Part shown: one piece after another, positions 2,811 to 58,138 of the stretch
Numbering within the stretch: the stretch's first letter is position 1
Layout: each line of letters starts with the position of its first letter
Source of the DNA: Pachyseris speciosa
Lineage: Eukaryota; Cnidaria; Anthozoa; Scleractinia; Pachyseridae
NCBI GenBank assembly: GCA_016490735.1
Contig: JAEMWC010000081.1
Span: 427,501 to 491,500 of the forward strand
DNA length: 64,000 nt
Reading direction: 5' to 3'
Made by a program: the position numbers and the translations under genes
Notes under the pieces: generated by a model
The model's input: the letters and a program-made list of their open reading frames with translations, nothing else
What the model was told of the DNA's origin: nothing
Databases searched by the model: none

Positions 2811-2849
2811 TTATACATGTTTAATGGCATAAGGTTAAGTTTTGACAAC

Positions 2850-11297: not shown

Positions 11298-11756
11298 GGA
11301 GTTTCACATGTAGAATGTATTTCCATAAACCGTAGGTTGAAACTAAAAGATAAACGAACTAAAAGTTACAACATGAATAAAAAGAATTGCACCAGCTGCC
11401 AACGAAATACAGCTAACAAGAAACGACGATAAAGACTATACTTACATTGTTACGGCTACTAAAAAACTGCGAAATAAACTGCCTTAGGCGAGATCCTCAC
11501 TGCGGGAAACTAAAATAAGAAACTTGCGCGTAGCGTGACTGCCAAGAAATGACTGTAAACCAAAAAGCAAGAAAACTAAGGCTTATAAGGCAAACACTGT
11601 AATTACATGCACAAAACGACGAGACTAAAAAAAAAGGTGTAAATTGTGATGAACTGTAGAAAAAAGTCGGAACGAAGGTGTGACACACAAAACAATAAAA
11701 CACTAACGAGCAGGCTACAGACTAGAAAACAAATTAGCGCCTAGGGATCTTACATA
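11298..11756. other. Non-coding spacer
   Basis: A-rich DNA with many stops in all frames. Nothing recognisable. Confidence 0.4.
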
Positions 11757-24742: not shown

Positions 24743-24799
24743 AGGCATTATATAAACCTGAATAATATATGCAGAGTTATTCAGTTTGCAAAGTCTGCC

Positions 24800-25225: not shown

Positions 25226-26209
25226 GAACCAGATGTCGGACAAAGAAAAGTTTTCCTTTTATTTTACGAAAAACTCAAATGAAGACGAAAGACAAAGTGT
25301 TTACATGGAAAAGCAAATAAACAACATTCTACTCACCGACTCTGTTGTCGATTTCTGCCGCATTAAATGAAATATAAGCTTCTTACGATCTGTTACAAAA
25401 ATGGCGCTTACCGTTTAAATCCAAAAATTTCATAACACGTGCGAAATATCTCTTCAAAGCGCGCATCAAAGTGTGCATCAAAATGAAAAGAACATCGTCC
25501 TTGAGACCTTCGTCCTCCATTTTGCATCCCATGAAGCTTTTCAGGTCTGTTTTAGGCGGAATCTGCTGTCTTAGGTATCGTTTTTCACATTGGCCCGCGA
25601 TACCTATTCTCGGACAGCCAGCTGACCAGAAAACAAAGATTGCGCGCGCTTATTCACAGCGGGAGTTTTGAGGTTATGAAAATGTTTTTCGGATAGTTTT
25701 TTTGTAATTAAAAAAGCTTTTTTAGCCTATTCTGGTTGAAAGAAAGTAAGGTAAGATAAATTACATTTTTTCAGCTATAGTATTATTAGCCAAATCCACG
25801 TGGTGCCACACAAGTATTGGTGTAAATGCGCCTCAATCAGTTCTTTTTTTTTTAGACTTTCTGGCGCCATGATGCAAAATTATTAAGCTTTTAAGTTAAT
25901 TTAACATTTACTTTGTAGTGACTTGAAAAGAGGCGTTAAGGGAATGACATGTTATAAGAGAGGGTAAGAGTAGGGGGTGTGGCTACAAGGAGGAGGTCTG
26001 GGCTCCATTTTTTATTTCCAATTTTATTGAGTGTTGTACAGGCTACATCAACTATGAAAGACAAGGTCAAATAATTTTTTTTCATGAAATTTAATTCTGA
26101 AAATGCTTTCAATTGATTCAAATGAAATTGGCCATGGTTTTTCAAAATATAGATAGATATGTGCAAACGCGGTTGTAATTTTCCATATTTCCATATTTGT
26201 AGGGCCGCA

Positions 26210-28741
26210 ATGCCCCGCTCAAAGAAATCCCTGCAATGGGAAGAAAACAACATGATCGCTGCTATTGAAAGTGTGAGGGGTGGGGGGAAGTCCATCCGAG
26301 AAGCTGCGGCTGAATTTAACGTGCCTAAGTCTACACTTGGTGATAGAGTCAAAGGTCGAGTCGTTCATGGTGCGAAGAATGGCCCCGAAACTCTTCTCAC
26401 CAAGGAAGACGAGGAAAAGTTGGTGGCATATCTAATCGACGTCAGCAAAAAGGGGTATGGCAAAAGCAAGGAGATCATTATCTTTATGGCTACACAAATG
26501 GCTGTAAAACGAGGAAAGGAAGTTAAAGGGGGAATATTGAGTGAAAAGTGGTGCAGGGGATTCCTCAAACGAAATCCAGCTATATCCCTACGGGCATCAC
26601 AAAACTTTGGAGAGGTGAGGACTTTGGTCCAAAGACCAACCATTGAAGCATTCTATCGTCGTTTGCTGGAGACAATGGCTGAAAACCAGTTTGGCAGCCT
26701 TCTGGAAAAGCCCCACCTAATTTTCAACGCAGACGAGAGCGGATTCGAATTCGATGCCATAAATAAGATCGTCGCAGCTGCAAAGGGCATGAAGCACGTA
26801 CCCCGCATATCCAAGGGGCAGCACGAGAAGGTCACCGTTCTCGCCTGTGCCGCAGCTGCCGGTAACAGTCTCCCTCCCATGTTTATCTTTAAGTCCCCAA
26901 GTGGAAGAATTCCAAACAGAGTACAGGAAGGGGCACCACCCGGAACGCTCTTCACCGCCCAAAAGTCCGGTTGGATTGACAAGGACTTGTACTTGAAATG
27001 GTTCGACGAGCTCTTCCTCAAGTCCATACCAGCAGAACGGCCAGCGTTGCTTATTGTCGATGGTCACAAGGCACATGTCACAGAAGATGTTATTAGGCTA
27101 GCGGCAGCAAATAGAATCCTTGTATTCTGTCTTCCCGCCCATGCCTCACACTTGCTCCAGCCTCTTGATCTTTCGCTTTTTGGCCCCCTAAAGAAAGGAT
27201 GGATGCGCGCATGTGCTGCCTTTCATCACCTGACGTCCGCTGTCGTCACCCAGCGTAACTTTGCGAAAATTTTCAACATTGCGTGGAATTCTAGCAACAC
27301 CCCAGAAGTAGTAAGAGGAGGATTTAGGAGGTCAGGTATTTATCCATTTAACCCCCAGGCCTTCGATTACAGCAAGTTAGCCCCAAGCAATCCAGAAGCC
27401 GGTCCAACGTCGTCTTTGTCTGTGACGCAACCAGTGGTGCCTTCAGCCCATTTAGCAGAGCCCCTACGGCCGTCTTCAATACCAGGGCAATCACCTCTGT
27501 TATCAAATCCTCTGCCATTAGCAGGACAACCATCGTCGTCCTCAACATCCTTACTGCAGCTGCCACAACTGTCTGCGACATCAGGGCAATCACCACCATC
27601 GTTAACATCCTTGTCGCAGGAGTCACAACTTTTTCCATCAGTGGAGCAACCACCGCTACCATTTCCACAGCTATCTTCCCGTCTCGATGAGACTTCATCT
27701 CTGCCTTATCCTTCGGCAGTTGACCTACTCCTGCCCATGACTTCCCCATTGTTTCCATCCAATAACAATAATCAGCCGCCATCACTGGCCTCCTTGTCCC
27801 CTCCCGAGCATCATTCGACACCGCAGTCTGCGTCCACACACATATTTGATGCGTTGGTGTCCCTTGAGAAGAGCGTTGGAAGACAGGAAAGAGAAAGGTT
27901 TCGCCGTCGGCTAGAAAATGGTTTCGACTTAACTTCGGATGAAACCTACAATGAGTGGAAGAGTCTACGCAGCCAAGTAGGCCATGGGAGAGGAGGTTGC
28001 CCATGCAAATCGGCCTGTTCCTGTTCCTGCAATGGTGTAGGATTTTGTGATTGCGTGGGTCATGGTGTATGTGCAACGGAAAGAAATGAACCATCAACCG
28101 GCAGAGCCGAAACGTCACCACCTGAACATCGAAGCCCAGTCATTCCTCAGCCATACTCCATCTCGACTCCATCCGGCGATGTGTTTATTGACAAAGACCT
28201 TTGTGACATTATGCTGAGACCTATGCGTGAGGTTCGAGGTGCACAGAAACGGCAACGGAGCAAAGATCCCCATCTTGACCCTGGAAATCAGTGCATAACA
28301 GGCAAAGTTTTCCTCCAGGCGATAACATCTGAAAACGAAAGGAAAAGAAAAGAAATTGAGGAAAAGGAAGAAAAAAGAAAAGAGAAAGCCAGGTTGGCCA
28401 CAGAAAAAAAGCGCAAAATTGAAGAGAAGAAAGAGAAAAAGAGAAAAGAAAACGAAGAAAAAGAGAAAAAGAAAAGAGAAAGAAACGAGAAAGCGAAAAA
28501 ATCAAAGAAACAAAAAGGTGCAGTAGTAGACGCCTACCTTGCAGATGTGGCTTCCTATTCGTGCACAAAGTGCGGCAAATCCTACGATAAAGACGGAGAC
28601 GATGTGTGGGTGGAATGTGACTTCTGTGATGGGTGGTTCCACCTTTATTGCACAGATTTACCTGTCCTTGATGACTTAGGTGACAATGTGGATTATACCT
28701 GTGAGATATGTGTTGCAAACGGATTCCCAGCACACAAATAG
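26210..28741 (+). CDS. Pogo-like DD35D transposase with C-terminal PHD finger (843 aa)
   Basis: The start is taken at ATG 26210 (MPRSKKSLQWEENNM); the frame is open 17 codons further up, but homology-like sequence begins here. Order: psq-type helix-turn-helix (residues about 5-50, SIREAAAEFNVPKSTLGDRV), CENP-B-type HTH (about 60-130, ILSEKWCRGFLKRNP), then the DDE_1 catalytic core with D175 (FNADESGFEF), D284 (LLIVDGHKAHV) and D320 (LLQPLDLSLFGPLKKGW), a DD35D spacing. A Ser/Pro/Gln-rich linker, a Cys cluster (CPCKSACSCSCNGVGFCDC, about 598-616) and a Lys/Glu-rich coiled coil (about 707-768) follow. The C-terminal PHD finger spans about 785-834 (CTKC, CDFC, WFHLYC, CEIC). No stop or frameshift. 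It should cut and paste this element in the nucleus. The PHD may read chromatin; that is inference. Confidence 0.92.
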   Translation: MPRSKKSLQWEENNMIAAIESVRGGGKSIREAAAEFNVPKSTLGDRVKGRVVHGAKNGPETLLTKEDEEKLVAYLIDVSKKGYGKSKEIIIFMATQMAVKRGKEVKGGILSEKWCRGFLKRNPAISLRASQNFGEVRTLVQRPTIEAFYRRLLETMAENQFGSLLEKPHLIFNADESGFEFDAINKIVAAAKGMKHVPRISKGQHEKVTVLACAAAAGNSLPPMFIFKSPSGRIPNRVQEGAPPGTLFTAQKSGWIDKDLYLKWFDELFLKSIPAERPALLIVDGHKAHVTEDVIRLAAANRILVFCLPAHASHLLQPLDLSLFGPLKKGWMRACAAFHHLTSAVVTQRNFAKIFNIAWNSSNTPEVVRGGFRRSGIYPFNPQAFDYSKLAPSNPEAGPTSSLSVTQPVVPSAHLAEPLRPSSIPGQSPLLSNPLPLAGQPSSSSTSLLQLPQLSATSGQSPPSLTSLSQESQLFPSVEQPPLPFPQLSSRLDETSSLPYPSAVDLLLPMTSPLFPSNNNNQPPSLASLSPPEHHSTPQSASTHIFDALVSLEKSVGRQERERFRRRLENGFDLTSDETYNEWKSLRSQVGHGRGGCPCKSACSCSCNGVGFCDCVGHGVCATERNEPSTGRAETSPPEHRSPVIPQPYSISTPSGDVFIDKDLCDIMLRPMREVRGAQKRQRSKDPHLDPGNQCITGKVFLQAITSENERKRKEIEEKEEKRKEKARLATEKKRKIEEKKEKKRKENEEKEKKKRERNEKAKKSKKQKGAVVDAYLADVASYSCTKCGKSYDKDGDDVWVECDFCDGWFHLYCTDLPVLDDLGDNVDYTCEICVANGFPAHK

Positions 28742-30773: not shown

Positions 30774-31304
30774 AACCAAATTGGTGAGACGGGTGTTGTG
30801 GGAGGGTCTTTTTCTGTGACTGAAGTGCAGCAAATGGCTGTGAAGAGTTATGTTCAATGGGTGTGGTTGGATGGAACCCACGCCCCAGGTCTAGGGGAGA
30901 CGATTAATGTTCACAGCATTTTGTCTAGCATTCTGAGAGTTTGTTCTGGGGAATTCGCGTCTGTAGGGGAGATGAATTTTTGGGATCTGAAAGTTTTTCT
31001 AGCAGGCGAGGTTCATAATCCTGTTTGCGCCTGGGATGTCATTCTACAGGGTTACGAGAGAAGAGAGAATATTTTTGAATACTTCTCTAGGGGAGTCAGT
31101 GCCCTGGGTGTTCACTATGACAGTCCTGCTCCTCTGAGGAATGCCTTCCGAAACTATTCGTCATGCAAGGGATTTGAAAATTTTATATCAAAGAGAGATT
31201 CGTTCCGGCATTTTGACATGGGCTGTGAAAGTATGGTAATGGAGCAAAACTTTAAAAGAATGCTCCTCGTTCGAGAGGCAAGAAAACTAGCAATGAAAAC
31301 GTAA
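30774..31304 (+). pseudogene. Second exon of retroelement-like gene, 3' truncated
   Basis: From the acceptor the frame reads NQIGETGVVGGSFSVTEVQQ, APGLGETINVHSILSSILRV, GEMNFWDLKVFLAGEVHNPV and CAWDVILQGYERRENI, then SPAPLRNAFRNYSSCKGFEN. This resembles the region just upstream of the RT in cnidarian DIRS-like or related retroelement polyproteins. After FISK the homology-like sequence ends and no RT follows. The last codons (ARKLAMKT then stop) lie inside the inverted arm at 31283-31381, so LINE A's insertion has trimmed the 3' end. Confidence 0.4.
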
Positions 31305-31564
31305 AGCTTGTGGGATGTGGCTGGAGTGACAAGGATACTTCACAAATTAATGCGATAAAGTAAGCAAAAGCCACTCAAAAGCTGTCCATGGCTGCTAATG
31401 ATTGGGCTTAATCTTTGCTTTGGTAGATTTAAGGGGTAATGCCCGCTACATTGTGGCCTTAGTGCCTTTTGAGTGGCTTCAGCTTACTTTATCACATTAA
31501 TTTGTGAAGTATCCTTGTCACTCCAGTCACATCCCACAAGCTTTATGTTTTCATTGCTTGTTTT
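31283..31564. repeat. Fold-back at the 5' end of LINE A
   Basis: The arm 31283-31381 is the inverse of 31466-31564 with about ten differences over 99 bp, enclosing an 84-nt loop. Shared words include GATACTTCACAAATTAAT and TGTGGGATGT. It arises because part of the LINE 5' unit is present inverted just upstream of the element, as expected from twin priming or a 5' template switch. Confidence 0.85.
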
Positions 31565-31640
31565 ATTGATATGTGGGTACTTGAGCCTGAACATTAGCTA
31601 TGCCATGCTGATGAGGCCCAACAAGGCCGAAACAGCTGTC
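31387..31640 (+). ncRNA. Permuted hammerhead-ribozyme unit (254 nt) in LINE 5' region
   Basis: The 3' end holds a canonical hammerhead core: CTGATGA (31608-31614), stem II GGCC-CAACAA-GGCC (31615-31628), GAAA (31629-31632), then ACAG/CTGT as a loopless stem III, and cleavage nucleotide C at 31640 (context CTGTC). The stem I partner is not just downstream but at the start of the unit. CATGGC (31387-31392) pairs with GCCATG (31602-31607). GCTAATG (31394-31400) pairs with CATTAGC (31592-31598), with a small U/UAU bulge between. The unit itself begins right after GCTGTC (31381-31386), the same cleavage context. A circular or dimeric RNA of this unit would therefore form a complete type I hammerhead, as in retrozymes and Penelope elements. 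Activity is not shown. Confidence 0.65.
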
Positions 31641-31772
31641 TTTCGCTTTCCTTGTTTTTTTTTTCCGAGGCAGTCTAAGTACCCGCCAGGGGAGAAAGGC
31701 AAAGCCTCCCCCCTGCTTTCTCAAAGCGTGTGAGTTAAATGTCTTGGTGATGTTTTTCTTTTTTTCTTAGCC

Positions 31773-33186
31773 ATGACTGATGATTTGAGCACGCCCTCAA
31801 GTTGGGCTGAAAATGTAACCGTTAATGAGTCTGATGCTTTTCCGTGTGCTTCCACGACTTCTGTGACCATGGATGCTCCTGATGCTCGTTTGTATTATAG
31901 TGTGGCAGCTCTGTCCTGTTCTGACGTTCTAGGAGATCTTGGTGATTTGTCGGAGATTCTGGATTATCTTCCGACTGCTTTTGAATGTGAGCATTTTGAC
32001 GAAGGCAACTTTATGTACAGCATATTTTATCGCCCGTGAATGTCTCAGTACCAAGGATATTTTTGATGCTCTGGCCAGAGATGGCATCCCTGCCAGGAAG
32101 GTTCGCTGCATTCAGCGTAAGTTGGACAATGACATTCATATCACCTTCACAGATAAGGCCATCTGCAAGAAGTTTGTTAAAATGACATCTTTCAGTGTTC
32201 AACATAATTCTTATTATGTTCGATCTCCTTCCAGACTTCACACCTTTTTTACTATTTACAATGCCCCAAATGAGATGCCTGATGATGTGCTTATCTCTCG
32301 TTTACCCCCGTACTGTAAAGTCATTCATTGTCGCTGTGGAAAGCTCTACGATCAGCCCAAAGTTTCTAATGGCTTGTGACATTTTCGGGAGACTATTATC
32401 CCAAGTCTGATGCTGATGATGATGCTACCGTTGACAAGAATAACGATGGTGATGACGAGGATGATGACATGCAGACGGCGGATAGTGATTCTCTTGCAGA
32501 TGTTAGCAAACACCAACAGCTTGTTTCATCTGCTATGCCTACTGCTGTCCTACCTGTTACAACTGCCGTGGTTTCTTCTGCTTCTACTGCTCCCAGTACT
32601 AGTGCCTCCAGCACTCCTGCTCAACCTGTTGTCTCCAATGTTTCTACTCAACTTAATGTTTTCTCTGGTACCTCTTCCGCTGGTATTTGCCGCGGTACTC
32701 CTGTACCTTCTTTGCTTCCTGAGGTGTCTGCTGACAGTTCTACTGCTCCCCGTGTTCTCAACTCACAAGGCCTTCTGGATACTACACCCAGTTTTTTCAC
32801 CCTCTACGCATTTCAAGTCTTCTTCCCTGCCGTCCGTGTTTTCTCCGTCTGCCAGTGGCCATCTCTCTGGATCTGCATCCAATGTGGAGTCTGCGAGGGC
32901 TGCTTCTGGCTCGTCCCAGGCTTTGTCCGGTTCTCTATCTCAAAAGCTCTCTTCGAAATCTTCTGGTCGTCGCAAGCCTGCCCCTTTTTCCAACTTGCAG
33001 GTCAGTACTATGCGTAAACCAACTGCTACTGTTAAGGTTTCTACTCCGAGGAGATCTGCGCAGTCTTCACAGTCTTCACAGCTCTCCAGGCCACATCAAC
33101 CTATGGATACTTGTGGTATCGGGCCGTGTAATCGATCTTCGTCTTCTGTTGAATCTGGCATCGCCCGTAAGTCTGCTCCCTCTTAG
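31773..33186 (+). pseudogene. LINE A ORF1 (RNA-binding protein)
   Basis: Begins MTDDLSTPSSWAENVTVNES at ATG 31773 after a TTTTCTTAG tract. A frameshift near 31990 leads to ARECLSTKDIFDALARDGIP and CIQRKLDNDIHITFTDK, an RRM-like nucleic-acid binding pattern in Tx1/L1-type ORF1s, ending at SRLPPYCKVIHC. Further shifts near 32370 and 32790 lead to an acidic then Ser-rich tail ending TAG 33184-33186. The zinc knuckles seen in LINE 2 ORF1 are not found here, so that block is deleted. ORF2 starts two bases after the stop. Confidence 0.65.
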
Positions 33187-33188
33187 TC

Positions 33189-34133
33189 ATGCCTTTATTA
33201 TTATTATTGTTTGTTGTGAAGCTTCTTTCACTTAATTCAAGGGGTTTTGATTTACGTAAGGAGTTAATGATTTTTGATCGTGCTAACAGTTATGATTTTT
33301 GTTTTGTTCAGGAAACTCATGTTTCTTGTTCCAGTAGGCTCACTGCCCTGTCTGCTGGGTGGTCTGGCCCTAGTTTCCGGTCGTCTGCCTTTGGCAGACA
33401 GGGTGGTGTGGCTATTCTTGTTTCCGATCGTTTTGATGGTGAGATTTTATCCTGGCGCAAAGATTCTGATGGCCGTGTTCTTAGTTTATTAACTACGTCT
33501 AATGGTTTCAAGATTAATTTCATTAATATTGATGCTCCTGTTAATTTAACCCATCGTAAAATCTTCTTTGAAAATCTTCCTGTGGATGCTATTATCCTAG
33601 GTGGAGATTTAAATTGTTATGAAAGTGAGCTTGACAAACTTGGCGGTAATGTTTTTGTTGCAAAATATTTAGCAGACTTTCATTCTTGTTTTAGACTTTC
33701 TGATGCTTGGCGTAAACTTTATCCCAGATTGCGCCAATACTCTTGGTTTAATTCGGATTTTTCAATTGGCAGTCGCCTTGATAAGTTTTTTGTTTCTTTT
33801 AATCTTGCTTCCTCTGTTCGTTCCTGTGATATTCTCCCATGTTGTTTTTCAGATCACAATTTCATTAGCTTGCAAGTTTGTTTGAATAATGATTATGCAC
33901 GTGGTCCTGGTCTGTGGAAATTTAATAACTTGCTGCTTTCAGATACTGATTTTTCGACCTGCGTTGATAATTTTCTATCTATTAAGGACTGGTGGGATTT
34001 TTTTAAACGTTCTTTACGTGCTGAAATTGTTTCTTATTCCAAACTTAAGCGCAGAGAATTATTCCACGAGCGTGCCAAGCTCACTAATCGTCTAATTAGT
34101 TGTAAGCAGCGTCTTTGTCAAGGGGACAATTTT
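33189..34133 (+). pseudogene. LINE A ORF2, endonuclease half
   Basis: ATG 33189 opens a frame with the AP-endonuclease motifs LLSLNSRGF (Asn), VQETHVSC (Glu), ILGGDLNCYE (Asp, Asn), SRLDKFFVS and CFSDHNFI (Asp-His). This frame is undamaged through GLWKFNNLL to LCQGDNF, where it is cut by the insertion of LINE B. It resumes at 41247 with the same GGGGACAATTT. Confidence 0.75.
34117..34133 (+). repeat. Target-site duplication flanking LINE B
   Basis: GTCAAGGGGACAATTTT here and GTCAGGGGGACAATTTT at 41247-41263 differ at one base. They bound the minus-strand LINE, whose poly(A) tail reads as the T run after 34133. Confidence 0.85.
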
Positions 34134-35717
34134 TTTTTTCACAAATCATATTTTACACCCATAAGACTAAGTTTACACAATAAAAGAAGGAGAAAAGAGA
34201 AAAAAAAAACTAAATAAAATGAAAGCCTGTCGGTCGCCAGTCATGACTAACTGATAAATTGATTATTCTTATTCTTATTTATTATTATTATTTTTTAAAC
34301 TTGTAATGCTAAGTGTATTATATAATATTGTATGTGTTATATGATATTTACGTACATACTTACACTACACTACCACTTATACTTGCACTACTTACAAACG
34401 CCAAGAATAGAAAGGAAAAAATACAATATTATAAAGACAGAAAAAATTTCCATTTGTTCTTGAATTCTTTCTCCTTATTAGAAATGATGCCAGGTATTTC
34501 TCTAAATTTATTTTTTCACGCACAAGTGAGACGAAATCCTCAAATTGGTGCGTTATGGCATTTAAAGCGTTGACATATAAGAAATATTTACTCAAAATAA
34601 TGAGATGGTTGAGGGCTAAACAATAAGTGTGACAGCGAGTAATTCTGAACATAACTTCTAATTCTGACAGAAGCAGTTTCGTGTTACTAGAGAGTGAATA
34701 CCATTCCTGGAACCTATTCCAAAATGAAGTCGACTGCGTACAATGTATAAACAAATGCCACATGGTCTGACACTCAGAAGGACAAAAGGGGCAGGAGGGC
34801 GAGGCAACTTTCTTCATTTTGTACAACAAGCTATTCGTTGGTAAAATTCGTTGAATAATTTTATATTGGAACATCGTTAATTTAATTGCTTTTGTGGCTT
34901 TGAAAGGTAAGAGGTAAATGTTATTTAAGTCATTCATCTCGCTGCAGCACGCTAAAGTTTTTTCTCAACAGTGGGCGGAGGTAGATCTTCAAGGTTTAAC
35001 AGCATTGCATATATTGTCTTGCATGTCAGTGAACCAATTGAAGTGGAAGGCGTAACTGGGTTTTCAGAACCTTCTTGCAATAGTTTCTTCGAAGTTTGGG
35101 GAATAGAAGAAAGAATGCTACAATATTGTAAAAAGTTACATTTTAGTTTGAATTTATTGCAAAAAGAGTTAAACGGAAGGAAACGGCCCTCACAGGAGTC
35201 AAAAAGGTCCGAGATACCATTGCATGATACCAATGAGGAAAGTATACCATTTTCCTTTTCACAGTTATAAATCGGTTGTTCCAGATTGTCTGTGAGAGAA
35301 CCTCATTTTTATTTTTGGGCGTGGTTGTTGCGATGTTTTGCCAGTAAAAAACAATTTGTTTGTAGAAGGCTGGAAGATGGTTGTCTAGGTCAAGGAGATT
35401 ATAATCATAATTGCATTTAAACAATTCAGTTCCGCCAACACTGGCAAGGAGCAATTTTGGTATGTACTGCCATGGAGCATCCGAATTAGAACATAACCGT
35501 TTAACCCAGTTTAACTTAAGCGCCTTATCAAAGAGAGAAAAGTCCTTTATTTTGGCAGGTTTGTGATTCCAAATAAAATCGAAAGTGATCTTATTTACTT
35601 CTTTGCTGAAGTCCTTAGGGGTGTCCATGACACTGCAGATAAAGACGAGTTTTGAAAGTGCTAATGTTTTAATTATATTTATCCTACCAAAGATAGTAAG
35701 GTCTCTTTGGGACCATA

Positions 35718-37360
35718 TGTGACCCTCCACAGGAAAACAGTCACTAAGGTGAACGCACGCACACGGCACGGTCGCACGTTAAAACAAAAGAAGCATGTCT
35801 TAACACGGTGGCTGCGTGTTAGTCACTTTCCTCATTAGTGTCCAAGTTATTGTTTTCCTTTGCACGCTGAAGACAATGCAGCGTGTTGAGATTCCTGCGT
35901 GCGATATCGCACGTATCAACACGGTGACCGTGTCAGAAGTTTTATTGTCTCCAGATATCAAGCAGAGATTTCGAGGCCTCAGCTTTTTTCTTTCCAAAAA
36001 AGCTTTGGAAAGTCATGATCGTAAAGTCGCTGCAACAAGCAGCGGGATTGCAGATTTGTCCTCAATTCCGTACATGACCACAGATACAAAGTAGATTTAC
36101 TAGGCAAGTTAAAGAAGGAACTTCCCTTCACTCACTTTAAGGTTTTCAAAGGGCCGGCTATTTTTTGGTTTGTATTCGAGTTTGAATTTTCACTCGTTTC
36201 CCACGCATGGAACGAATCAACCGAAACCACCAAAATGAGACACTAACTTCTTTTGAACGACCATTCTGCATTTGCCCATCAACAAACAGGTCACAGAAAT
36301 TTTGAAAAAACTAATGGGAATGAACCGTGATTTAACACCATCCAAAAACACCATTCAACTTAAAGGCAAGCGAGATTTATACCCAAATAATTTTATGGTT
36401 TACTTGTGCTAATCCTCAAATTCGCTGAGATGTTGCGTTATCTGACCCCGCCATCAAGTCTCGTAACCTTGCTGATCAGATTTCAAACTACAGTATGCAA
36501 ATTTGTCTTAAATCAGTCAGGAGTGTAAAATGAAAAACAACAGCAGTGAAACTAAAAAATATTTAGTTTTCTTTTCATCAGAACAAAAGAATAATAAAAA
36601 GACCACGAAGCATGTCTGGGAAATTTTTGCAAGAGGTCAATCAGTTCCCGAAAATACGAAAACATTCAGACAATAATTCCCGTGTAACAGTCGCCGCAAG
36701 TGACAGGGCTTCGATAAGTCTCGCTCATTCCCACGAAGTGCATCGCATGACAACACAAATTCTTTACAAACGTTTTGTGTATGGCCTTTAAAATTCATCC
36801 AGAAAGCATTGCCTCGACATTAAGTCCGCTGTTTCGTGCTTCGTTTGGAGATAAAACAAACCAGCAACTTGTCTAATTTCAAGAAGTTTCAAAAAGCGAA
36901 ACGCACCAGCTGATCGATAGAAATAAACATTACTCCTCGGAGCGAAAAGAAACGCGATCCAACTGCTGTGATGAGCACTTTTAACGATGAGAATTAGAGG
37001 CATTTTATTGTGCTCCGCAGTACCGCAGATACTGGTTTCAATGGTAAAAGAAAAACGATTCTCCATTAACGTAATCCGGTAAGCATGGAACCCGTTAAAA
37101 GATGTCTAGCGTGTGTACAAACAAAGACATTACCGTGTTAATACCATGTTAATCCATCGTGCTAAATATACAAAGCTCTACCGTGTTAGAATCGTGCAAA
37201 CAAAGACCACAAACACGCTACTACACGTTCCATTGTTCTTGTTTGCACATATATGAATATACGCACGATAAGCGTGTTGTGTCCGAATCGTGCGAGCGTG
37301 TTGCTACCGTGCCGTGTGCGTGCGTTCACCTTTGTGACTGTTTTCCCGTGGAGGGTCACA
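35718..37360. mobile_element. Non-autonomous TIR DNA transposon, 1643 bp
   Basis: Ends match as inverted repeats over about 55 bp with two mismatches, beginning TGTGACCCTCCAC, with TA on each flank. Many CACGGT/ACACGCT-type words recur near both ends (for example AACACGGTGACCGTG at about 35918 and TACCGTGTTA at about 37131), probable subterminal binding sites. No transposase is recognisable; the 92-codon frames inside look like chance. It sits in LINE B ORF2, and its removal rejoins that protein. Confidence 0.88.
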
Positions 37361-37824
37361 TATATGCAATGTTTTCTTTAACGATCCTAATTTTTCAAAA
37401 AAATTTTTCTTTTCAGACGCTTCTAGATTGTATGTAAAATGCATTCCAAGCGCGTAACCCGTTCATTTGGAGATCAAGGGGTGCATCTTTCCTGTGGCGC
37501 ATGGAGCCAAGCCATTATCAGCATTTCAGATTTTGTTCGATTTATTTTCAGGTCAGAGCACTTTTCGAAAGGTGACAATAAATCGGATAAGTTTGACCTC
37601 TTTATTTTCACCTATGGTAATACCTTTTATTTCTTTTGAACATCTAATACTGTGTGCAAGTAACTCAATAGCAATAACGAATAGGGTGCCGGAAAGTGGG
37701 CAACCTTGACGCACTCCACGTTCTAGATAAAAGTGTTTTGAGGCGTATCCGTTATTCAAAACACAACTAGAGATATCTTTATAGAACACTTTTATCCATT
37801 GATGAAGGTCAAGACCGAAGTTAA

Positions 37825-38265
37825 AGTGTCTATATCGTCTTCTGGTTTTTGGTGGTTCTGATATGTACATAAGGAGTAGATAGCTGTTCAAAAAGGTTTT
37901 TTCAGATTCCGCCTTGTTTTTGCCCTGAAATCGTCGTTCAAATTTCCCGCTTGAGCCACACCCATCAAACTTGACCGAGCTAGTAAGGGGCATGGGTATA
38001 TTCCTGATCTGACGTCACAAACTGCTTTGCATGCATGTTTACAAAGACTTAATGAGGTGCAAATCACTTTGTGACGTCAGATCAGGAATAGACCCACTCC
38101 CCTTACTAGCTCGGTCAAGTTTGATGGGCATGGCTCAAGCGGGAAATTTGAACGACGATTTATGGGCAACACCACAGCGGAATTTGAAAAAAAATTTTTG
38201 AACAGCAATCTACTCCTTATGTCTGCACCAGAACCACAAAAAACATAGAAGACGAGAAAGACACT
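37825..38265. mobile_element. Palindromic MITE with TTAA target duplication, 441 bp
   Basis: Almost the whole element is one long inverted repeat: AGTGTC...GACACT ends, arms of about 200 bp (for example AAATTTCCCGCTTGAGCCA on both sides), centre near 38035. TTAA flanks it at 37821-37824 and 38266-38269, which points to piggyBac-type mobilisation. It interrupts LINE B RT between VFLDFENA and FNFGLDLHQW. Confidence 0.9.
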
Positions 38266-40284
38266 TTAAACGTTTCGAGGCATTTTCGAAATCCAAAAAC
38301 ACAGCTACCCCTGAGATATTCTTCTGTTTAGTGAAATGCATTGTGTCTGATATTAGCCTAATGCTTTCCCCAATGAACCTTCCCTTAACATACCCGGATT
38401 GGCAGGGATGAATTAAATGTGGCAAGATCTTTTCCAAGCACAGAGCAATAGTTTTCGTTGCTATTTTATAGGCTACATTCAGTAATGATACAGGTCGCCA
38501 ATTCTTTAAATATTTGGTTTTCTTTTTCTTTTTCGGGATTAAAGAAATAATCCCTTGGCGTTGAGAGATAGAAAGAGTTCCATTTTGAAAGGCGTAATTA
38601 AAGCTGCTTACCATAAAACGAGCCTAGTAAGTTCCAAAAGTAGTGGTAAAATTCAGGGGTGAGCCCATCCGTACCAGGAGTCTTATTGTTTTCCATAGTC
38701 TTTAACGCGCGCTCACACTCATCAATAGACATATCACCTTTCCACGTTTTCGCGATCTCTTCTGATAATGAATTTTCTGTTTCGAAGAAATCGTTGAAAA
38801 TTGGGCAGTTGGGATCTTTATTTCTTGACGTATAAATTTCTTTGAAAAAGCGCTCTTCCTCCTCAAGGATGTCCTTAGGGTTTGTAATTTTGTTGCCATC
38901 GTTGATTACTAAGGACATTATATGTTTCTTTTTTTGGTTACTTTTTTCTAAGTTATAAAAATATTTGCTATTCCTCTTGCCATGCTCGTACCAGTGCGCT
39001 CTACTGCGCACAATTGTTCCTCGTGTTCTGATCTCTGTAATTTTTGAAAGCTTAGTTTTTATTCTCTCCAGTTCAGATTTAAGAGAATCGCTGTATGATG
39101 TCTGGAGTTGGGTCTGTAATCTCATCATTTCCGACAAAAGAGTTGATTTTAAATGTTAACAGTTCCACGTAATTAGTATCTGAGAGCAAGGAGTTGTTAA
39201 ACTTCCAGAACCCAGGTCCCCAAGGGAGCTCACGTTTGTTAAGGAACAAGGAGAGAGCAACGGCGGAGTGATCTGAATAAATGTTTGGGAGTATTTTGCA
39301 CTCTTTCACGCGGTCTTTTAGCTGCTTTGAAATAAGGAAATAGTCAAGTCTACACTATATTTTCATTGATGGGTTAGCCCATGTGAAGCCCAGTTGATCT
39401 GGATTCTTGAAGCGCCAGGAATCGAGTAAATTGTGTTTTGATTAACGATTGAAGCTCATTGAGAGAAGCTTTTTTTCCGTCAATTGGTCTACCACCGTTT
39501 TTGTCTAAAGTGCTAATTGTGCAGTTGAAATCACCTCCTAGCACGAGACTGTCGTCGGCGTACGGACTTAGGAATTCTTTTGAAAGGTCTCTGAGGAATA
39601 CAACTTGTTGGGTTGCATCGTTTGGTGCATAAACGTTAACCAAAACTATTTTGGTACCATCAATAATAATCTCGGCTAAAATACACCTGCCATAATTATC
39701 TGCAGTAATTTTTTTGAAGTTAACGTCAAGACGTGGTTTGAATAAAATCATAACTCCTCTACTATGAGAAGAGCCGTGGCTGAACACGATTTTGCCTCCC
39801 CATTCCATTTCCCATCTTTTGATAGATTCCGGTGAGGAATAAGTTTCTTGCAAGAAAATGATATCCGATTGTTGCTGATGCAACCAACGAAAAACTTGTC
39901 TTCGCTTTCTCGAACTGTTTAGCCCTCTTATGTTAAGTGATAACATTTAGTTTCTGATCAAGAGATAGATGTGATATCCAAGCAATAACCAATAACAAAG
40001 TTGTCTTAATAATGTGCTCATGCTGCGACTGATATTCAGCATTACAAGGCTTGATTCTATTTGCGCTGTTAACAACAGAACAACTTTGACAAACATGACA
40101 GAAGAACAAGCTAAAAAGGAAAGACATACTAAGAGAAATGACACAATTCTAACTATTACCGACTTACCCAAAGCTTTGTGCGGTCTTTGACTGGATGGAG
40201 AGCGTGGAAAGTCGCAGCTCTTAAGCAGGTTGTTAAGAAGTATAAAGCAAACTAAAATTTAGAGCTTATTCTACCTTAATTGTT

Positions 40285-41152
40285 CATTAAGCGCCCATAG
40301 AAAGGAAATTGTAAGTTTCTTCACCACGGTAAAGAGCACCGTCGATGATCAGCTTTTTGACGTTGAGGTATGCAGCCTTCTCGCGCTTGGCTGCCTTTAG
40401 TACCGGGTATAGTTTCTTTCTTATTTCATCAACTCTTTAGGGAAATTGTCGGACATTCCAAATCCGGTACGTCTTGGGAGATTCTTGATGAACGATTTGA
40501 TAAAAACTTTGTCTTGAAAATCCGTCAGCTTTACTATAATCGGCCACGGTTGAGAATTTCGGCCATTTGATTGTGTTCACTTCGTAATTCTATGAGCTCT
40601 GTCAAAACGAATCTATTCTTCATCAACTTGCAGGATTTTCAGCTTCGTACACATGAATTCTCCAAGGGTGAGCTTGGTGTCGCTGTTAGATTCGTTTTCA
40701 CGTTCCTTTATGCCAAAGAATTTCATATTACCTCTACGACTGTGACATTCGAGATTAACATGTCGGCGATGTAGCTCTTTAAAAGCGCGCTCGATGCATT
40801 CACTAGAGTTGTTGGTCGCTTCTCGTTTGAAGTTTGCATCATTTATTACGGATTTGAGATCCTCAATCTCTGCTTGTGAATACTCCAAGCTCGTTTGCAG
40901 GGATTTATTTTCTTCCTCGAGGAGAGTTATCCTCTTTTTATAAGTTTCCAATTCGGGAAGTATACCTAAAAGCATGTAGAGTTTCTCTTCAATGCCGGAG
41001 AGCCTAAAGTTTGTTGTTTCGAAGCATTCTTCGCACCCTTGCTTGTGATGTTGATCAGACACGTCTTCTTCATCAGTTTGAGAGCTACCTTCCCTTGTCC
41101 GTTTTCTGCTGCTTTCTGCGGCTTCCTTTCTTTTTGCTGGTTCATCAGGCAT
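40285..41152 (-). pseudogene. LINE B ORF1 (L1 ORF1p-like)
   Basis: ATG at 41152 gives MPDEPAKRKEAAESSRKRTR, a coiled coil (LEEENKSLQTSLEYSQAEIE) and the RRM-like segment HVNLECHSRRGNMKFFGIKE. After a stop near 40613 and a frameshift the C-terminal domain follows (FYQIVHQESPKTYRI, EIRKKLYPVLKAAKRE) to about 40285. The order coiled coil, RRM, CTD is that of L1 ORF1 proteins. Confidence 0.75.
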
Positions 41153-41246
41153 TATAAATAGATAATAAATGAATCCTAACCACTGCCCTGGCTGCAAAAA
41201 CTGAAAAATCACTACGAGCACATTTTCGGCGTGACCGCCATCTTGA

Positions 41247-43805
41247 GTCAGGGGGACAATTTTGTCGTTTCAACAATTGTCTCCCTCGAATCTCGACTTA
41301 AAGAGCTTACCTTAAGGGACCTGGAAAGTGCCAAAATTCATAGTCGGGTTCAATGGTTTGAAGACGGTGAGAAGCCCACACACTTTTCCTTTAAATTAGA
41401 ACGTGAGCGCATGGATCGTAATTTTGTGTGTTCTTTTTTAAATGCAGATGGGATTCGAGGTTTTTGCCCGTGAGGGAATTGAACATGCGCACGTGTGTTT
41501 TTATAGTGATTTATTTTCCCCTGAGCCTATTGATCCCATTTGTAAACGACTGCTACAAGATTTTGCTTGTTCTCTCACTGCAAGTGATCACGATTTCTGT
41601 ATGAGGCCCTTTCTTTATCTGAGCTAGCCGAGTCTCTCTCTTCTCTTAATCTTGGTAGGTCCCTTGGTCCCGACGGTTCTACTGCTGAATTCTATAGAGC
41701 TTTTTGGCACCTTTTGGGTCCTTCCTTTTTAAGAGTTGCTTGTGAATGTTTTACTGACGGAGCGCTGTCTGATTCCATGAAGGGTAGCGCTACCCGACTA
41801 ATTTTCAAAATGCGAGGTGACAGGAAAAGTCTGAAAAATTGGCATCCCATCAGTTTGCTTAATGTAGATTATAAGATTATTTCTAAAGCTATCACTTGTC
41901 GCCTTTCTCGTGTTCTAGGTTTTGTTGTTGACCCGGACCAGACTTGTTCTGTGCCAGGCCGATCGATTTCGTCCAATGTTGTTTTATTACGGGACTGATG
42001 AGACGGCAATTCTCATTAGCCTTGACCAGGACACTGCTTTTGATTGTGTCGACCGTTCGTTTTTAACAGATCTTCTCTGTCACCTTGGTTTTGGCCCAAA
42101 TTTTCTGAGATGGGTTCACACCTTTTACGAGGGCGCTTACATGTGAATTCTTCTCAATGGATGGTTAACTGAGAAAATTCCTTACGTCGTGGGGTGAGGC
42201 AGGGTGACCCCTTGTCCCCCCTGCTTTATGTTTGATGTATTGAGGCTCTTGCTTGTCAAATTCGCAGTTGTCCTGAGATCAGGGGCTTTCTCTTGCATGG
42301 TGCCCGCAGCCGCCAGGCTAAAGTTCGTTTGTACAGTGATGATACTACGGCAATTTTGAAAGATTTTCGGTCTCTTGTTAAAATATTGATGTTATTTCTA
42401 TTTATGAGAGGGGTTCTGGTGCGAAGTTAAATAAGTCCAAAACTTAGGCCATGTGGCTGGGTTCGTGGAAGGATAGAAGTGATGAGCCACTTGGCCTCAC
42501 TTGGGTACGTAAAATAAAGGTTTTAGGTGTAGTTTTCGGCACTGTTCCTACCAAATTTGATAATTGGCAGCCCTGTCTTAACAAGTTAGAGGGATCCCTT
42601 GATCTTTGGAAATCTCGGTCACTGTCCTTTGTTGGTAAGAGCATTTTAATTAATGTTCTTGCCCTTAGTAAATTACTTTATCTCGGGAGATTTCTTATTA
42701 TGCCCGCATGGGTGCTTGCGCGTGTCAATCAATTGATTTGGCCTTTTCTTTGAGGTTCTCGTTGTGAAACCGTGAGTAGGAACACTTGCTTTTTACACCA
42801 GAGTGCAGGGGGGTTGGGCATTTGCAATTTGGCCTTGAAATGCGATGCCCTTCGTTTAAGTTGCATGATTTCCACCGTCAGTTCCTCCGAGGACTCTGGT
42901 TTTTTCCTATGTAATTCGTTGGCCGATGCCTTGCATCCATGCGGGCTGAGTGGGCTGGCTTGCATGATTCTTCCACTCCTAACACAAGTCATCCCACTCC
43001 TTTCTATGATGTTTGTCTTCGCGTTCTAGCTCAAGTTTCGTCTGTTGATGATCTTGTATCTCGTAAGATTTATAGTTCTCTCCTCTCGCATCGTTCTTCT
43101 TCCCCTCTTCTCCTGAAGTTCTGGTCTTCTTTTCTCCCTCGTCCTTCTTCTCTTGATTGTTACTGGTCTCTTGTCCAGGATCGTTTTACTGAAAATTTTG
43201 ATCTTTTGTGGTTGATTGCCTTGCGCGGTATCAAGGTCCGTGATTCTTTAAAGCGTTGGGTCATCATAATTTCTGGGGTTTGTGCGTCGTGCCCTAGACA
43301 GGAGACTATCGATCATTGTTTTCTTAATTGCCCTCGTGTTAAGTGTGTGAACCCATTTTAAGCCGATTCTGTCTGTCCTACTGTGTCTTAATTTCCGTGT
43401 TAATTGTCTTTTTCTTTTTATGGCCCGCAGTTTCTGCCAAGAGGGCCAGAGTTGCACATTTTCTTCTTAAGTCCATCCTCTACGGCATTTGGGTGTTTCG
43501 CAATAAGGCCGTCTTTTTCAATGGTAAAGAAGACCATAGGGCTATCATTCGTTCGAATTTCGTTGGACTCTATTCGGCTCTCCGAATCCTGTTTTGCTGA
43601 GTCTTGGCTAATTGACGATTTCTGTGTCGTGGAGGATGGGCTTGTCAGGATCTTTATTAAGTCGTCGTTCTTTCATGTCTGTGCATTGTCTGTGCACTAT
43701 TCATTGACTATATCATCAAAGGCCCTATATAAGGAATTTGTTTGGCCTGTGGCCTCAGGGACTTTATTTAGGGGTTTTGTTTTGTATCAGATCGCCTACT
43801 CTGGA
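41247..43805 (+). pseudogene. LINE A ORF2, RT half
   Basis: Resumes after the duplicated target: SLESRLKELTLRDLESAKIH, VQWFEDGEKPTHFSFKLE, then in other frames RSLGPDGSTAEFYR, LKNWHPISLLNVDYKIIS, LISLDQDTAFDCVDRSFL, LRRGVRQGDPLSPLLY, VRLYSDDTTAILKDF (active site, YSDD) and the finger CASCPRQETIDHCFLNC. At least six frameshifts or stops, so inactive. The 3' UTR follows, with AATAAA at about 43891. Confidence 0.75.
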
Positions 43806-43923
43806 TAAACGTTGACTGTCTGATGTACTTCTGAATATTGCATGTGCCTTTGTTTTATTGTCTTTGTCTTTTAATGTGTTTTCATCTGTGAATAAACTTT
43901 CTTATACAACCGAGACAGCTGTC

Positions 43924-44162
43924 CATGGCTGCTAATGCTTGGGCTCAATCTTTGCTTTGGTAGATTTAAGGGGTAATGCCCGCTACCTTGTGGCCTTAGT
44001 GCCTTTTGAATGGCTTCAGCTTACTTAATCAAATTAATTTCTGAAGTATCCTTGTCACTCCAGCCACATCCCACAAGCTTTACGTTTTCATTGCTTGTTC
44101 TATTGATATGTGGGTACTTGAGCCTGAGCATTAGCTATGCCATGCTGATGAGGCCTAACAAG
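43924..44162 (+). repeat. Second copy of the hammerhead unit, truncated
   Basis: About 94% identical by eye to 31387-31624. Stem I partners CATGGC (43924) and GCCATG (44139-44144) and core CTGATGA (44145-44151) are kept, but identity ends at AACAAG (44162), so GAAA and stem III are lost. Immediately upstream, at the LINE A/LINE 2 junction, CCGAGACAGCTGTC (43910-43923) resembles the missing half (CCGAAACAGCTGTC) with one A to G change. Confidence 0.7.
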
Positions 44163-44178
44163 TTGGGATAACTGCTGA

Positions 44179-45729
44179 TTGGCCCACATAGCAGCATCTT
44201 CACCCCCCAGTTGTCAGCATGAGAAAAGGACAAATATCTTCACAAGGAATCCAGCGGATGCGAATGCGAAAGCGGATGAGAATGCGAATGGTGATGTTGT
44301 CACCGAAACGCCAGTCTTATTTTCCAAGGAAAACAATACTTCCCAGGGGTCCAAGTCCCCAGAGGCTGAGGAACGAGAAGATTTCGTTCCTGCACCGAGT
44401 GTTTTGCAGGATTTATATGCGAGTGGGGCTCATTTTGCTAAAGTCCCCGGCAACACGTGTTCCTTTGGAAAAAATGGTGTATGTCTGAAGGAGTTCTTTG
44501 TGTACTTCATAATAGACACCGTCTGCTCTAGCCAGGACATTCTAGAAGGGCTTGACAAAGCAGGCCTGGACATTGACACAATTAATTCAATACAGCACCG
44601 CGCTTCAAACAACCTGTGGATTGTGTCCTTTGAATCTAGTGACGCTAAAAATGTTGCCCTCGGCCTTCAAGAAGTTTGGATCAATGGTTACCAAGTTTTC
44701 TTGGGGGATTGTGAAAGGAAAGTGGTACTTGTTAAAGTTTTTGAAGCTCTGACTGAATTGCCGGATACGATTTAATTGGGCGGCTCTTGGCGTACGGAAA
44801 GGGTTTTTCTTTTTGTTGCGATAGAGTTGCGACTTCTATTTTTAATGGAATTCGTACTGCTCGAATTCGCCTTCAGATGGACATCCTGTCCACTGTTTTT
44901 ATTGCAGGCGAGTTCATTTGTATCTAGGTCAACTGAAGACCTGTCGTCGTTGCGGGACTCTAATCATTTGGCTGCGAGTTGTTCCTCTGTTCATTGTTTC
45001 AATTGTGAGAAACCTGGACACCGCATGGAAGATTGAGAGGAGTCTACTCGGTGTTGTATTTGCCTTTCCAATGAGCATCCCGCCCTGGATTGTCCATTCT
45101 TGTACAGTGCAAACATTGACATTCAGCCTTCCAATTCATCATATGCTGATGTTGCGAAGACCGTAACTTACCCGCCGACCGTAATTTCCCAACCGGCCAT
45201 GTCACCCTCATACGCGAGTATGGCCTCACGTTTGCCGGAAAAAGTAGAGGCCGGGCATCTACTCAATTGAATTCCAGTGGTAAAAAGGCTCAGCAAAATT
45301 CCCCTAAGATGAATAGTGCGACGGTAGTACCCGAGAAGAGTGAGGGAGAGGAAGAGAGAGGAAAGGAAGGAAGAGGACAGGAGGAAGGAAGAAGAAAAGA
45401 GGAAGGATGATCAGAAGGAAGATCGTAAAAGAAACTCTCGAAAAAATGCTGATGCATTGTTGGACAGTGAGCGGGTTCCCGATCGTCCACGCGAATCCCG
45501 TGAGTAGGATCGTGAACACGATGGACACCGGGACCGTGAGTACGAACGTGCTTCGACGCGGGACTGCTATCGGGATCGCGATCACCATCGCGAGCGGGAT
45601 TACGATAGTTATGATGACCGTCATAGATCAAGAACCCGTGAGCGAGATCACAGCAATAACTCTGGATCTGACTCTGATGAGGTGTCTCAGTGGGTAAGAG
45701 TACGAAGGAGGAGGAGGGGTTGCCATTAG
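44179..45729 (+). pseudogene. LINE 2 ORF1 with zinc knuckles
   Basis: The frame from 44179 includes NTCSFGKNGVCLKEFF, DILEGLDKAGLDIDTINSIQ and NNLWIVSFESSDAKNVAL (RRM-like). It shifts near 44775, then reads TARIRLQMDILSTVF and three CCHC-type knuckles: CRRCGT...C, CFNCEKPGHRMED, and CCICLSNEHPALDC. An Arg/Asp-rich tail ends VRRRRRGCH at TAG 45727-45729. Frameshifts and a TGA at about 45034 disable it. Tx1-type ORF1 proteins carry this RRM plus CCHC order. Confidence 0.65.
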
Positions 45730-45744
45730 CGCCAATTCTAACAG

Positions 45745-46643
45745 TTGCCACCTTAAATGCTCGGGGTTAATTACCCCCGGTAGATGTGATCTAGCCTGAC
45801 ATGAATTGTCTCGGGCTGATTTTGATATTGTCTTATTACAGGAGACTCATGTCTCTTGCAAATTACAAGCTGATAAAATTGCGCGGAAATGGTCTGGTGA
45901 TTGTCTCTGGTCTTTTGGGAGTGGCCGGTCGGCCGGTGTTGGCTTGCTCTCCTAGATTCCAGGGCAAGATTTCTTGATATGTTTTTTATTCTGATGGCAG
46001 AGTTATTAGTGCATTGGTGCTTTTGGGGTCACACAAATTTAACATTTACGCTCCAAATACCGTTTCTGAGCACAGGGCCTTCTTTGGACAATTACATTCC
46101 TATTTTCTTTCTCCTGTTCGTTTGATCGCTGGCGATTTTAATTGTATTGATAATGTTCTTGATCGCTTACATTGCTCTGAAAATCGCCTGCCTGATAAAT
46201 GTGTTCTTCGTAATTTCATGTCTGATTGCTTACTTGTTGATATTTGGTGTAAACAAAATCCGCGTGGGATTTCTTTTACTCGGGCTAACAGTTCTCAGGC
46301 ATCGCGCCTTGATCGTTTTTTGGTTTCTCAAAGTTAAGTGAAATACGTTTGCGTAAACAAAGTTTTACCGTGTCCTTTTTCGGACCATGATTTTGCTGTT
46401 TTAAATCTGTCTGTTGATAATCGCCCTGGTCCTCGAAACAGTATTTGGAAATTTAACACTGCCCTTTTGTTTGATGTAGACTTTAAGCGTGAATTGTCAG
46501 CGCTCATTAATAGTCACAAGGGTGGTATTGCTGATTTCTGTTCTCTGGGGAAATGGTGGGATAGTTTAAAACTTGTTATCCACAACGCATGCATTGGCTT
46601 TTCTTATCGTAAGTGTAAAATTGCCAATCTCGAACGTAATTAG
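45745..46643 (+). pseudogene. LINE 2 ORF2, endonuclease half
   Basis: Opens TVATLNARG (Asn motif), then LLQETHVSC, KFNIYAPNTVSEHRAFFGQL, LIAGDFNCIDNVLDR, SQASRLDRFLVSQS and CPFSDHDFAVLNL across several frames, ending GPRNSIWKFNTAL and KIANLERN at 46640. Element X begins there. Confidence 0.65.
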
Positions 46644-54839: not shown

Positions 54840-55074
54840 GATCAAAAAACGAAAATGGCGCCCAGTGTTTTGTTTTTTTTGTCATCCGCTGTGTATTTGT
54901 ATTGCTGGCTATGGTAAAAACTTGTCAAAGAAAACTTGTAATTTGTTCACACCAGCAAATAAAACTTGTCAAGGCAAAACTTGTCGAAGAAAACTTGTCG
55001 TTCATACACATGAGCAAATGAAAATTGTCAACGAGACTTGTCAAAGAAAACTTACTCGTCTGTAACCGGCTTAA

Positions 55075-56600
55075 ATGTTTAATCTGGGCCAAGCATGCCT
55101 TTTCACAAGGTGACCATTCTATGTCTTCGGAAATAAGAGACCACGAAAGTGCCCTTTCGTCCCTCCTATTACGGGAGGCGGAGGGTGCAAGAATTCGCTC
55201 ACGTGCCAAATGGATCGAGGAAGGTGAGAAACCAACTCGATATTTCTTTCGGCTCGAGCAAAAGCGAGCTGAGAAGAATTCGTTTGTCTCCTTGATTCAA
55301 ATGGTGTGGAGAAAACGTCACAGTCTGATGTTGAGTCTATTCTTGTGGACTTTTACAAAAATCTTTTCACCAAAGTTGACCTTGACGCACAGATTCAAGC
55401 TGAAATAATTGACAACCTTGAATTTTCATTAATGGACCTTGAACGCGAAAGCTGTGAGAGTGAAATAATGAAAGATGAGCTTTTTTCTGCCCTGAAAGGC
55501 CTTCAGACTGGTAAATCGCCTGGGTCTGATGGTCTTCCACCTGAATTTTATCTGTCTTTCTGGGATGATTTGGGCGACATTCTCGTTTTAGTTCTTGACG
55601 AAAATTATCGTTTGGGGTCCTAACTGACAGCCAGCGTGAGGGCCTCTTGCGCTTGCTGTACAAAAAGGATGATAGGCGATTGCCGAAAAATTGGCGTCCA
55701 ATATCTCTCCTAAACACAGATTATAAACTGGCATCCAAGGTAATCACAGAGCGTTTAAAACCGGTGATGAGTTCTATTGTTCATCACAATCAAACGTGCA
55801 GCGTAGTGGGAAGATCGATTTATTCTACATGTAACTTACAGTTAATCTGTGATACACTCGATATGATTGAGAAAACTGATGAAACTGGCATTCTTGTTAC
55901 GCTAGACCAGGAAATAGCTTTTGATCGCATTGACCATGGTTTTCTCATGTGCACTCTTTCTAAATTTGGTGTTGGTCCTTCCTTTTGTCGCTGGGTGCGC
56001 CTCTTTTATAATGATGTCTTTTCATGTATTATCTGTAATGGCAATCTCACTAAGGCCATTTTCCTTGAGAGGGGAGTGAGGCAGGGTTGTCCCCTGTCTC
56101 CCCTTCTTTATGTCTTGGTATCAGAGGTTTTGTCAACTCAAATTAGGAAATGTAAGTAAATCAAGGGCTTCTGGCTTCCCGGAGCTGGGGTCTTCAATTT
56201 AAAATCTCCCAGTACGCCGATGATGCCACTAAATTTGTTAAAAGCGAGCTTTCTCTCTGTCATCTTTTGTGTGTTGTGCAAAGGTATGAACTAGGCTCAG
56301 GCGCCAAGCTCAACTCCTCCAAGTCAGAGGCTATGTGGCTTGGGCGGTAGAGAACGAATGGCGCCTCTCCCTTCCGCTTAAATTGGGAATAGAAAATGAA
56401 AATTTTAGGGGTCTATTTTTCAAATGGCCTAGTATCTGTCGAGTCGATAACTGGAAATCGAAGCTTGACAAACTAGAAACCGTTCTTAATTTATGGAAAC
56501 AGAGAGAGCTGTCTTTTTCAGGCCGTGCAATGATTGTTAATGTACTTGGTGCTAGCCGGTTTTGGCACGTTTATCGCGTGCCGTTTGTTTCAGAATTATT
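55075..56600 (+). pseudogene. LINE 2 ORF2, RT half
   Basis: LIWAKHAFSQGDHSMSSEIR, AKWIEEGEKPTRYFFRLEQK, GKSPGSDGLPPEFYLSFWDD, LPKNWRPISLLNTDYKLASK, VTLDQEIAFDRIDHGFL and RGVRQGCPLSPLLYVLVSE, then in another frame QYADDATKFVKS (active site) and FSNGLVSVDNWKSKLDKL. It ends near 56600, before the C-terminal finger, where the 39-bp minisatellite starts. It aligns motif by motif with the LINE A RT half. Confidence 0.75.
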
Positions 56601-56689
56601 TATCGACGTGATGTTATATCCTGTATATTCTATGTATTATATTTAGCCTTGGTATTATTTGTTTGTTATCTATGAGATTGGTACATTTA

Positions 56690-58090: not shown

Positions 58091-58138
58091 CTTGCTATCA
58101 ATTTACCACTAAATTAATGCGGTAATGTTTTTAACAGT

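Follow-up and report, generated by a model that had tools for sequence, protein, structure and literature searches.

A tandem retrozyme-like hammerhead repeat in the coral Pachyseris speciosa, probably split by an inserted Tx1-like LINE

Introduction

How does a full set of hammerhead ribozyme parts come to lie at the very 5' border of a LINE? The question is raised by a locus in Pachyseris speciosa (GenBank assembly GCA_016490735.1, contig JAEMWC010000081.1, positions 427,501 to 491,500), in which a 254-nt segment is directly followed by a non-LTR retrotransposon of Tx1-like type. The initial annotation took this segment for a hammerhead in permuted order, serving as the 5' leader of an autonomous LINE. 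We analyzed the locus together with its surroundings, i.e. the whole stretch of 64,000 nucleotides, hereafter the window, whose first letter is position 1. The units, LINEs and ORFs are on the plus strand unless otherwise stated.

Results

The hammerhead unit

The 254-nt unit (unit 1, 31387..31640) runs from one predicted cleavage site to the next, and both its length and the predicted sites bear out the annotation's view of it as exactly one cleavage-to-cleavage monomer. Its initial CATGGC begins at 31387, immediately 3' of the motif AGCTGTC (31380..31386), which ends at a predicted cleavage site and which, judging from the sequence and a junction scan, is possibly the final 7 nt of a lost upstream unit. 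The 3' strand of stem I (CATGGC T GCTAATG) occupies 31387..31400, and the 5' strand (CATTAGC TAT GCCATG) lies at 31592..31607, with GCCATG at 31602-31607; both are thus within the unit. The core (31608..31640), matched by RF00163 below its gathering score and by a custom descriptor, consists of CTGATGA (31608-31614), the sequence GGCC CAACAA GGCC forming stem II, GAAA, and CAGCTGTC up to 31640, i.e. the palindrome of a loopless stem III ending in GTC. All of these letters, from the core and stems II and III to the two strands of stem I, are as initially described. The unit has a G+C content of 43% and a predicted fold with z = -4.12, none of 200 shuffles (0/200) being equally stable.

The ribozyme looks permuted because the 3' strand of stem I also stands at the start of unit 1. 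The parts do occur in that order in the sequence, but the arrangement reads as a tandem hammerhead junction split by an insertion (see below). A custom descriptor for permuted hammerheads, applied to both strands, matched two sites in the window, namely unit 1 (6 bp in each of stems I and III) and a second site at 16091, with 3 bp in stem III and 8 bp in stem I. As the same descriptor gave 9 matches when the 64 kb were dinucleotide-shuffled 150 times, the permuted arrangement is by itself not overwhelming.

Searching the whole window with Rfam yielded no family match at gathering score, and the sole hammerhead at E up to 5 was HH9 (E 0.43, 22.6 bits against a gathering score of 52). When 601 nt were searched, RF00163 (Hammerhead_1) matched 31602-31646 (E 1.3e-4, 27.6 bits against a gathering score of 34), with stem I left unpaired because TTTCGC comes after GTC. 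Exact-pattern scans of viral contigs and of genome contigs gave 0 matches each, a viral-contig search for relatives gave two stretches matching a pattern, of which 0 were confirmed, and a search with the 59-aa conceptual translation of the doubled unit returned no candidate; all of these were uninformative.

LINE1 and its nested insertion

The adjoining element, LINE1 (31641..43909), is 5139 nt long when its nested insertion and one duplication copy are left out. It begins at 31641 with TTTCGCTTTCC, and its ORF1 has an ATG at 31773 and a frame that is broken further on. ORF2 starts off with an apurinic-type endonuclease (PF03372, match at 33234-34130), after which the match to relatives breaks off at about 34130 and restarts at about 41243 (among the matches listed, in 9 of 68 relatives), so that ORF2 resumes at about 41247, past the nested LINE. 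The reverse transcriptase part was identified by tblastn with relatives, e.g. P0002, which bears PF00078, and a zf-RVT domain (PF13966, E 3.4e-9) is found at 43203-43343. Endonuclease, reverse transcriptase and zf-RVT together are the domain set of a Tx1-like LINE, and one of the 68 relatives (P0062) is named 'Transposon TX1 uncharacterized 149 kDa protein, partial [Acropora cervicornis]'. LINE1 thus resembles Tx1-clade LINEs in its endonuclease and zf-RVT, the placement being made by domains and this one name. LINE1 has no poly(A) end, and an AATAAA is found at 43891. A search for homologues of its C-terminal piece (43404-43805) gave 12 candidates, 0 of which scored; the 3' end past zf-RVT (43343) is therefore placed by its position, the AATAAA and the target-site duplication.

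The interruption is due to another LINE on the minus strand (34134..41246), a third one in the window of broadly this type, which has a poly(A) end and carries no hammerhead unit at its 5' end. It is bounded by target-site duplications GTCAAGGGGACAATTTT (34117..34133) and GTCAGGGGGACAATTTT (41247..41263), identical at 16 of 17 positions. Within it, an inverted repeat of 187 nt with 88% complementarity is found at 37845-38244.

A second unit beyond LINE1

By comparing the window with itself, a second copy of the hammerhead unit was found past the 3' end of LINE1 (43917-44162, 95% identity over 246 nt). This unit 2 (43924..44162) agrees with unit 1 at 227 of 239 positions. LINE1 is bracketed by a 14-bp target-site duplication with one mismatch, the left copy being CCGAAACAGCTGTC (31627..31640) and the right copy CCGAGACAGCTGTC (43910..43923, 13/14 identical), with an exact stretch of 9 bp (ACAGCTGTC). 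Unit 2, which starts with CATGGCTGCTAATG, comes immediately after the right copy, and the two are in exact register. Consequently, the same unit is present on both sides of LINE1, head to tail and in register.

When the flanks are joined as they would stand without LINE1, the parts of a type I hammerhead become complete: CATTAGC TAT GCCATG, CTGATGA, stem II, GAAA, CAGCTGTC and finally CATGGC T GCTAATG of the next unit. A classical type I descriptor, which had 0 matches in the window and 1 in 150 shuffled windows, had 1 match in this joined empty site. In Rfam, the occupied locus stayed below the gathering score. Among 1379 GTC sites on both strands of the window, 5 are followed by at least 6 bases complementary to the 5' strand of stem I, and both unit starts (6 bp each) are among these. 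The joined site has a predicted fold of -43.0 kcal/mol with a long stem I, as compared to -27.6 for the occupied site at equal length, a difference that should not be overread, as the minimum-energy fold forms stems I and II but has part of the core paired (GCUG with CAGC) instead of the hammerhead junction.

Between unit 1 and unit 2, two changes in stem I improve the pairing (15/205, A.A to C-G; 23/197, U.G to C-G). Placed on the whole predicted fold, unit 2 breaks 4 of 74 testable pairs against a null mean of 5.0 (P 0.36), which gives the fold no support; the energy test gave P 0.02.

Unit 2 stops after AACAAG and thereby lacks GAAA and stem III. The portion missing from its end is GCCGAAACAGCTGTC, after which the CATGGC of a next unit would come. 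A decayed continuation past 44162 was rejected, as the remaining 15 nt aligned with the next 40 nt at chance level only, an equally good score being reached by 562 of 5000 shuffles and by 383 of the window's 3198 40-mers.

Apart from these two direct units, the 64-kb window contains only a partial unit in inverted orientation. The latter (31279..31381, minus strand) is 103 nt long, is by alignment 93% complementary to 31466-31568, with which it forms a foldback, and abuts the AGCTGTC of unit 1. It may stem from snap-back copying or from an inverted insertion. A minus-strand Rfam match to MIR5048 at 31294-31553 (E 9.2e-14, 64.4 bits against a gathering score of 160) was read as this foldback and discarded.

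LINE2 and comparison of the LINEs

The sequence following unit 2 belongs to a different Tx1-like LINE. The first part of this LINE2 (44163..46640), with an ORF1 in which zinc knuckles were recognized by eye and an endonuclease match reaching 46637, abuts unit 2 at 44163, within the hammerhead. An apparent continuation with the reverse transcriptase region (RVT_1) is found after other insertions at 55037..56577, placed by homology only. No clear target-site duplication for the interruption, and no 3' end of LINE2, was found in the window. A tandem array whose period is about 38-39 bp (56683-58106) interrupts or ends LINE2.

The first halves of LINE1 and LINE2 have only short DNA matches in common (E 0.05 or worse), and their reverse transcriptase halves have no DNA match in the self-comparison of the window at E 1e-10. 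At the protein level, the endonucleases are 33% identical over 257 aligned positions and the reverse transcriptase halves about 45-53% identical in the three best-scoring matched pieces. Since the units are 95% identical while the DNA likeness of the two LINEs is at noise level, the unit did not descend together with them.

Other features of the window

At 10637-11298, a 220-bp repeat occurs three times in tandem with 97-99% identity, and an Rfam search at E up to 1 detected in it no hammerhead and nothing above gathering score. An ORF at 24229-24744 has the motifs TKIHKP and HGTAMGTKMA and looks like a fragment of a Penelope-type reverse transcriptase, although without support from Pfam, NCBIfam or PDB sequences; if it is one, it would be a possible mobiliser of retrozymes. 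Upstream of an ORF with a LINE endonuclease lies an ORF at 2757-3650, in which we assume a PHD-like region and a 2A-peptide-like sequence (GDIHPNPGP). Finally, an unbroken transposase-like frame of 862 aa (26153-28741) contains DDE_1, HTH_psq and a C-terminal PHD finger.

Discussion

With the units lying head to tail and the hammerhead parts complete where the flanks are joined, LINE1 appears to have been inserted into a retrozyme-like repeat. We therefore hold it to be highly probable that the locus is a tandem repeat of this kind, encoding a type I hammerhead and split by a Tx1-like LINE. At least two units would first have lain head to tail, and the LINE would then have inserted exactly between them, presumably by target-primed reverse transcription. 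In doing so, it would have duplicated the short target CCGARACAGCTGTC, which is the GAAA, stem III and GTC end of the hammerhead, and parted the core and the 5' strand of stem I on the left from the 3' strand of the next unit's stem I on the right. The landing of another LINE in LINE1 would be a later event, and LINE2 abuts unit 2. As long as the dimer was uninterrupted, its transcripts would be expected to cut themselves at GUC/CAUGGC into 254-nt monomers, which a host ligase may circularise, and the repeat itself may have been mobilised by the reverse transcriptase of another element. The predicted cleavage position is exactly where LINE1 has its 5' junction, a coincidence to be expected in about 1 of 254 random insertions, which speaks against this reading unless it is luck.

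Reading the unit as a 5' leader that is native to a Tx1-like LINE and trims its RNA in the manner of the HDV-like ribozymes of R2 has the linear order of the parts in its favor, as AGCTGTC, the cut, stem I, the core and ACAGCT follow each other as in a hammerhead open at stem III, with 6 bp in stem III as well as in stem I. Such a ribozyme would cut at 31386/31387 and be kept at the 5' end of the LINE RNA, and there are two Tx1-like LINEs in the window that each have a unit directly 5'. The unit is, however, also present past the 3' end of LINE1, in register, and a short piece of hammerhead sequence stands duplicated at the two ends of LINE1, so that the annotation of the unit as the leader of an autonomous element is not supported. 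Nor does a leader passed on with this type of LINE fit the 95% identity of the units next to LINE DNA that is alike at noise level only, the loss of GAAA and stem III from unit 2, or the third, nested LINE, which lacks the unit altogether. An R2-like ribozyme belonging to the LINE is accordingly very improbable here, judging by the LINEs of the window. Somewhat less so, though still improbable, is a chimera formed by template jumping, in which the reverse transcriptase of the LINE copied its own RNA up to the 5' end and then jumped to the 3' end (GUC) of a self-cleaved retrozyme RNA. End-to-end jumping by LINE-type reverse transcriptases does occur, and it would account for unit 1 ending exactly at the predicted cleavage position C31640. 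The right flank would then also have to be an in-register retrozyme unit, preceded by CCGAGACAGCTGTC, while a single insertion into a dimer accounts for both sides together.

The units could also be imagined as direct terminal repeats of a composite element, like the pseudo-LTRs of Penelope-like elements, given that LINE1 is flanked by two units of equal orientation. By definition, the reverse transcriptase enclosed in Penelope-like elements is of Penelope type, with no apurinic-type endonuclease. The element enclosed here has the LINE-type endonuclease PF03372 as well as the zf-RVT domain PF13966, and a composite element would leave unexplained both the short duplication beside the right unit and the different LINE after unit 2, so that we give this idea hardly any credence, even though hammerheads are possible in Penelope-like pseudo-LTRs according to the excerpted text of PMC7761336.

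The split repeat belongs to a known kind. Retrozyme monomers of about 225 and 245 bp, with tandem type I hammerheads, are described for the coral Acropora millepora in the excerpted text of Cervera and de la Peña (2020, PMC7229834). As far as that text goes, the metazoan non-LTR retrozymes and the locus in P. speciosa have in common the unit size (here 254 nt), the tandem layout with the parts of one type I hammerhead per junction, a G+C content below 50% and a strongly self-paired predicted RNA. The two 95% identical in-register units also fall within the size range of the short head-to-tail repeats of retrozymes (about 150-450 bp), and the values of 43% G+C and z = -4.12 agree with their composition and pairing. 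Size, layout, G+C content and ribozyme type hence support the likeness to retrozymes that the initial annotation had pointed out. What differs is that the direct units in P. speciosa number only two and are separated by a LINE, and that a partial unit lies inverted upstream of them.

There are also likenesses to other ribozyme-bearing retroelements. As in R2, whose 5' ribozyme is HDV-like, a motif for self-cleavage lies next to a LINE's 5' end, but the ribozyme in this case is part of the target repeat and not of the LINE, as it flanks LINE1 on both sides together with a duplication and is missing from the nested LINE. The excerpted text of PMC7761336 attributes to Penelope-like elements and Terminons a type I hammerhead with a tiny stem III, as found here, and direct copies on both sides of a retroelement are another similarity; the difference is that the element enclosed in our case is a LINE with an apurinic-type endonuclease, and that the copies are read as target DNA.

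Some Tx1-like LINEs might even use the conserved hammerhead core of retrozymes (CCGAAACAGCTGTC) as a specific landing site, a suggestion that we regard as doubtful, since two insertions are too few. LINE1 and LINE2, with their noise-level DNA likeness, sit at adjacent units in the same orientation, and, counted in positions of the unit, LINE2 has its 5' junction at 239/240 and LINE1 its 3' junction only one base further on, at 240/241, provided that the duplication is 14 bp. The 5' junction of LINE1, for its part, is the predicted cleavage position itself. With a 14-bp duplication, the first nick of LINE1 would be CTGTTTCGG/CC, which is not T-rich, while that of the nested LINE would be AATTTT/. 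Other target-specific LINEs land in snRNA or rRNA genes. The Tx1 clade is rich in target-specific LINEs, according to the excerpted text of PMC4640811, and among the matches listed in a literature search no title dealt with hammerhead repeats as the insertion site or target of a LINE.

A LINE with a hammerhead leader would have been new, and that claim is now removed. In its place, the locus illustrates how an insertion at the junction of a tandem ribozyme can make a ribozyme next to the element look perfect and permuted, the lesson being that the other end of a LINE, as well as any nested insertions, should be inspected before a 5' ribozyme is assigned to it. If it should be true that LINEs of this clade target hammerhead repeats, an abundant circular-RNA repeat would constitute a new class of landing site.
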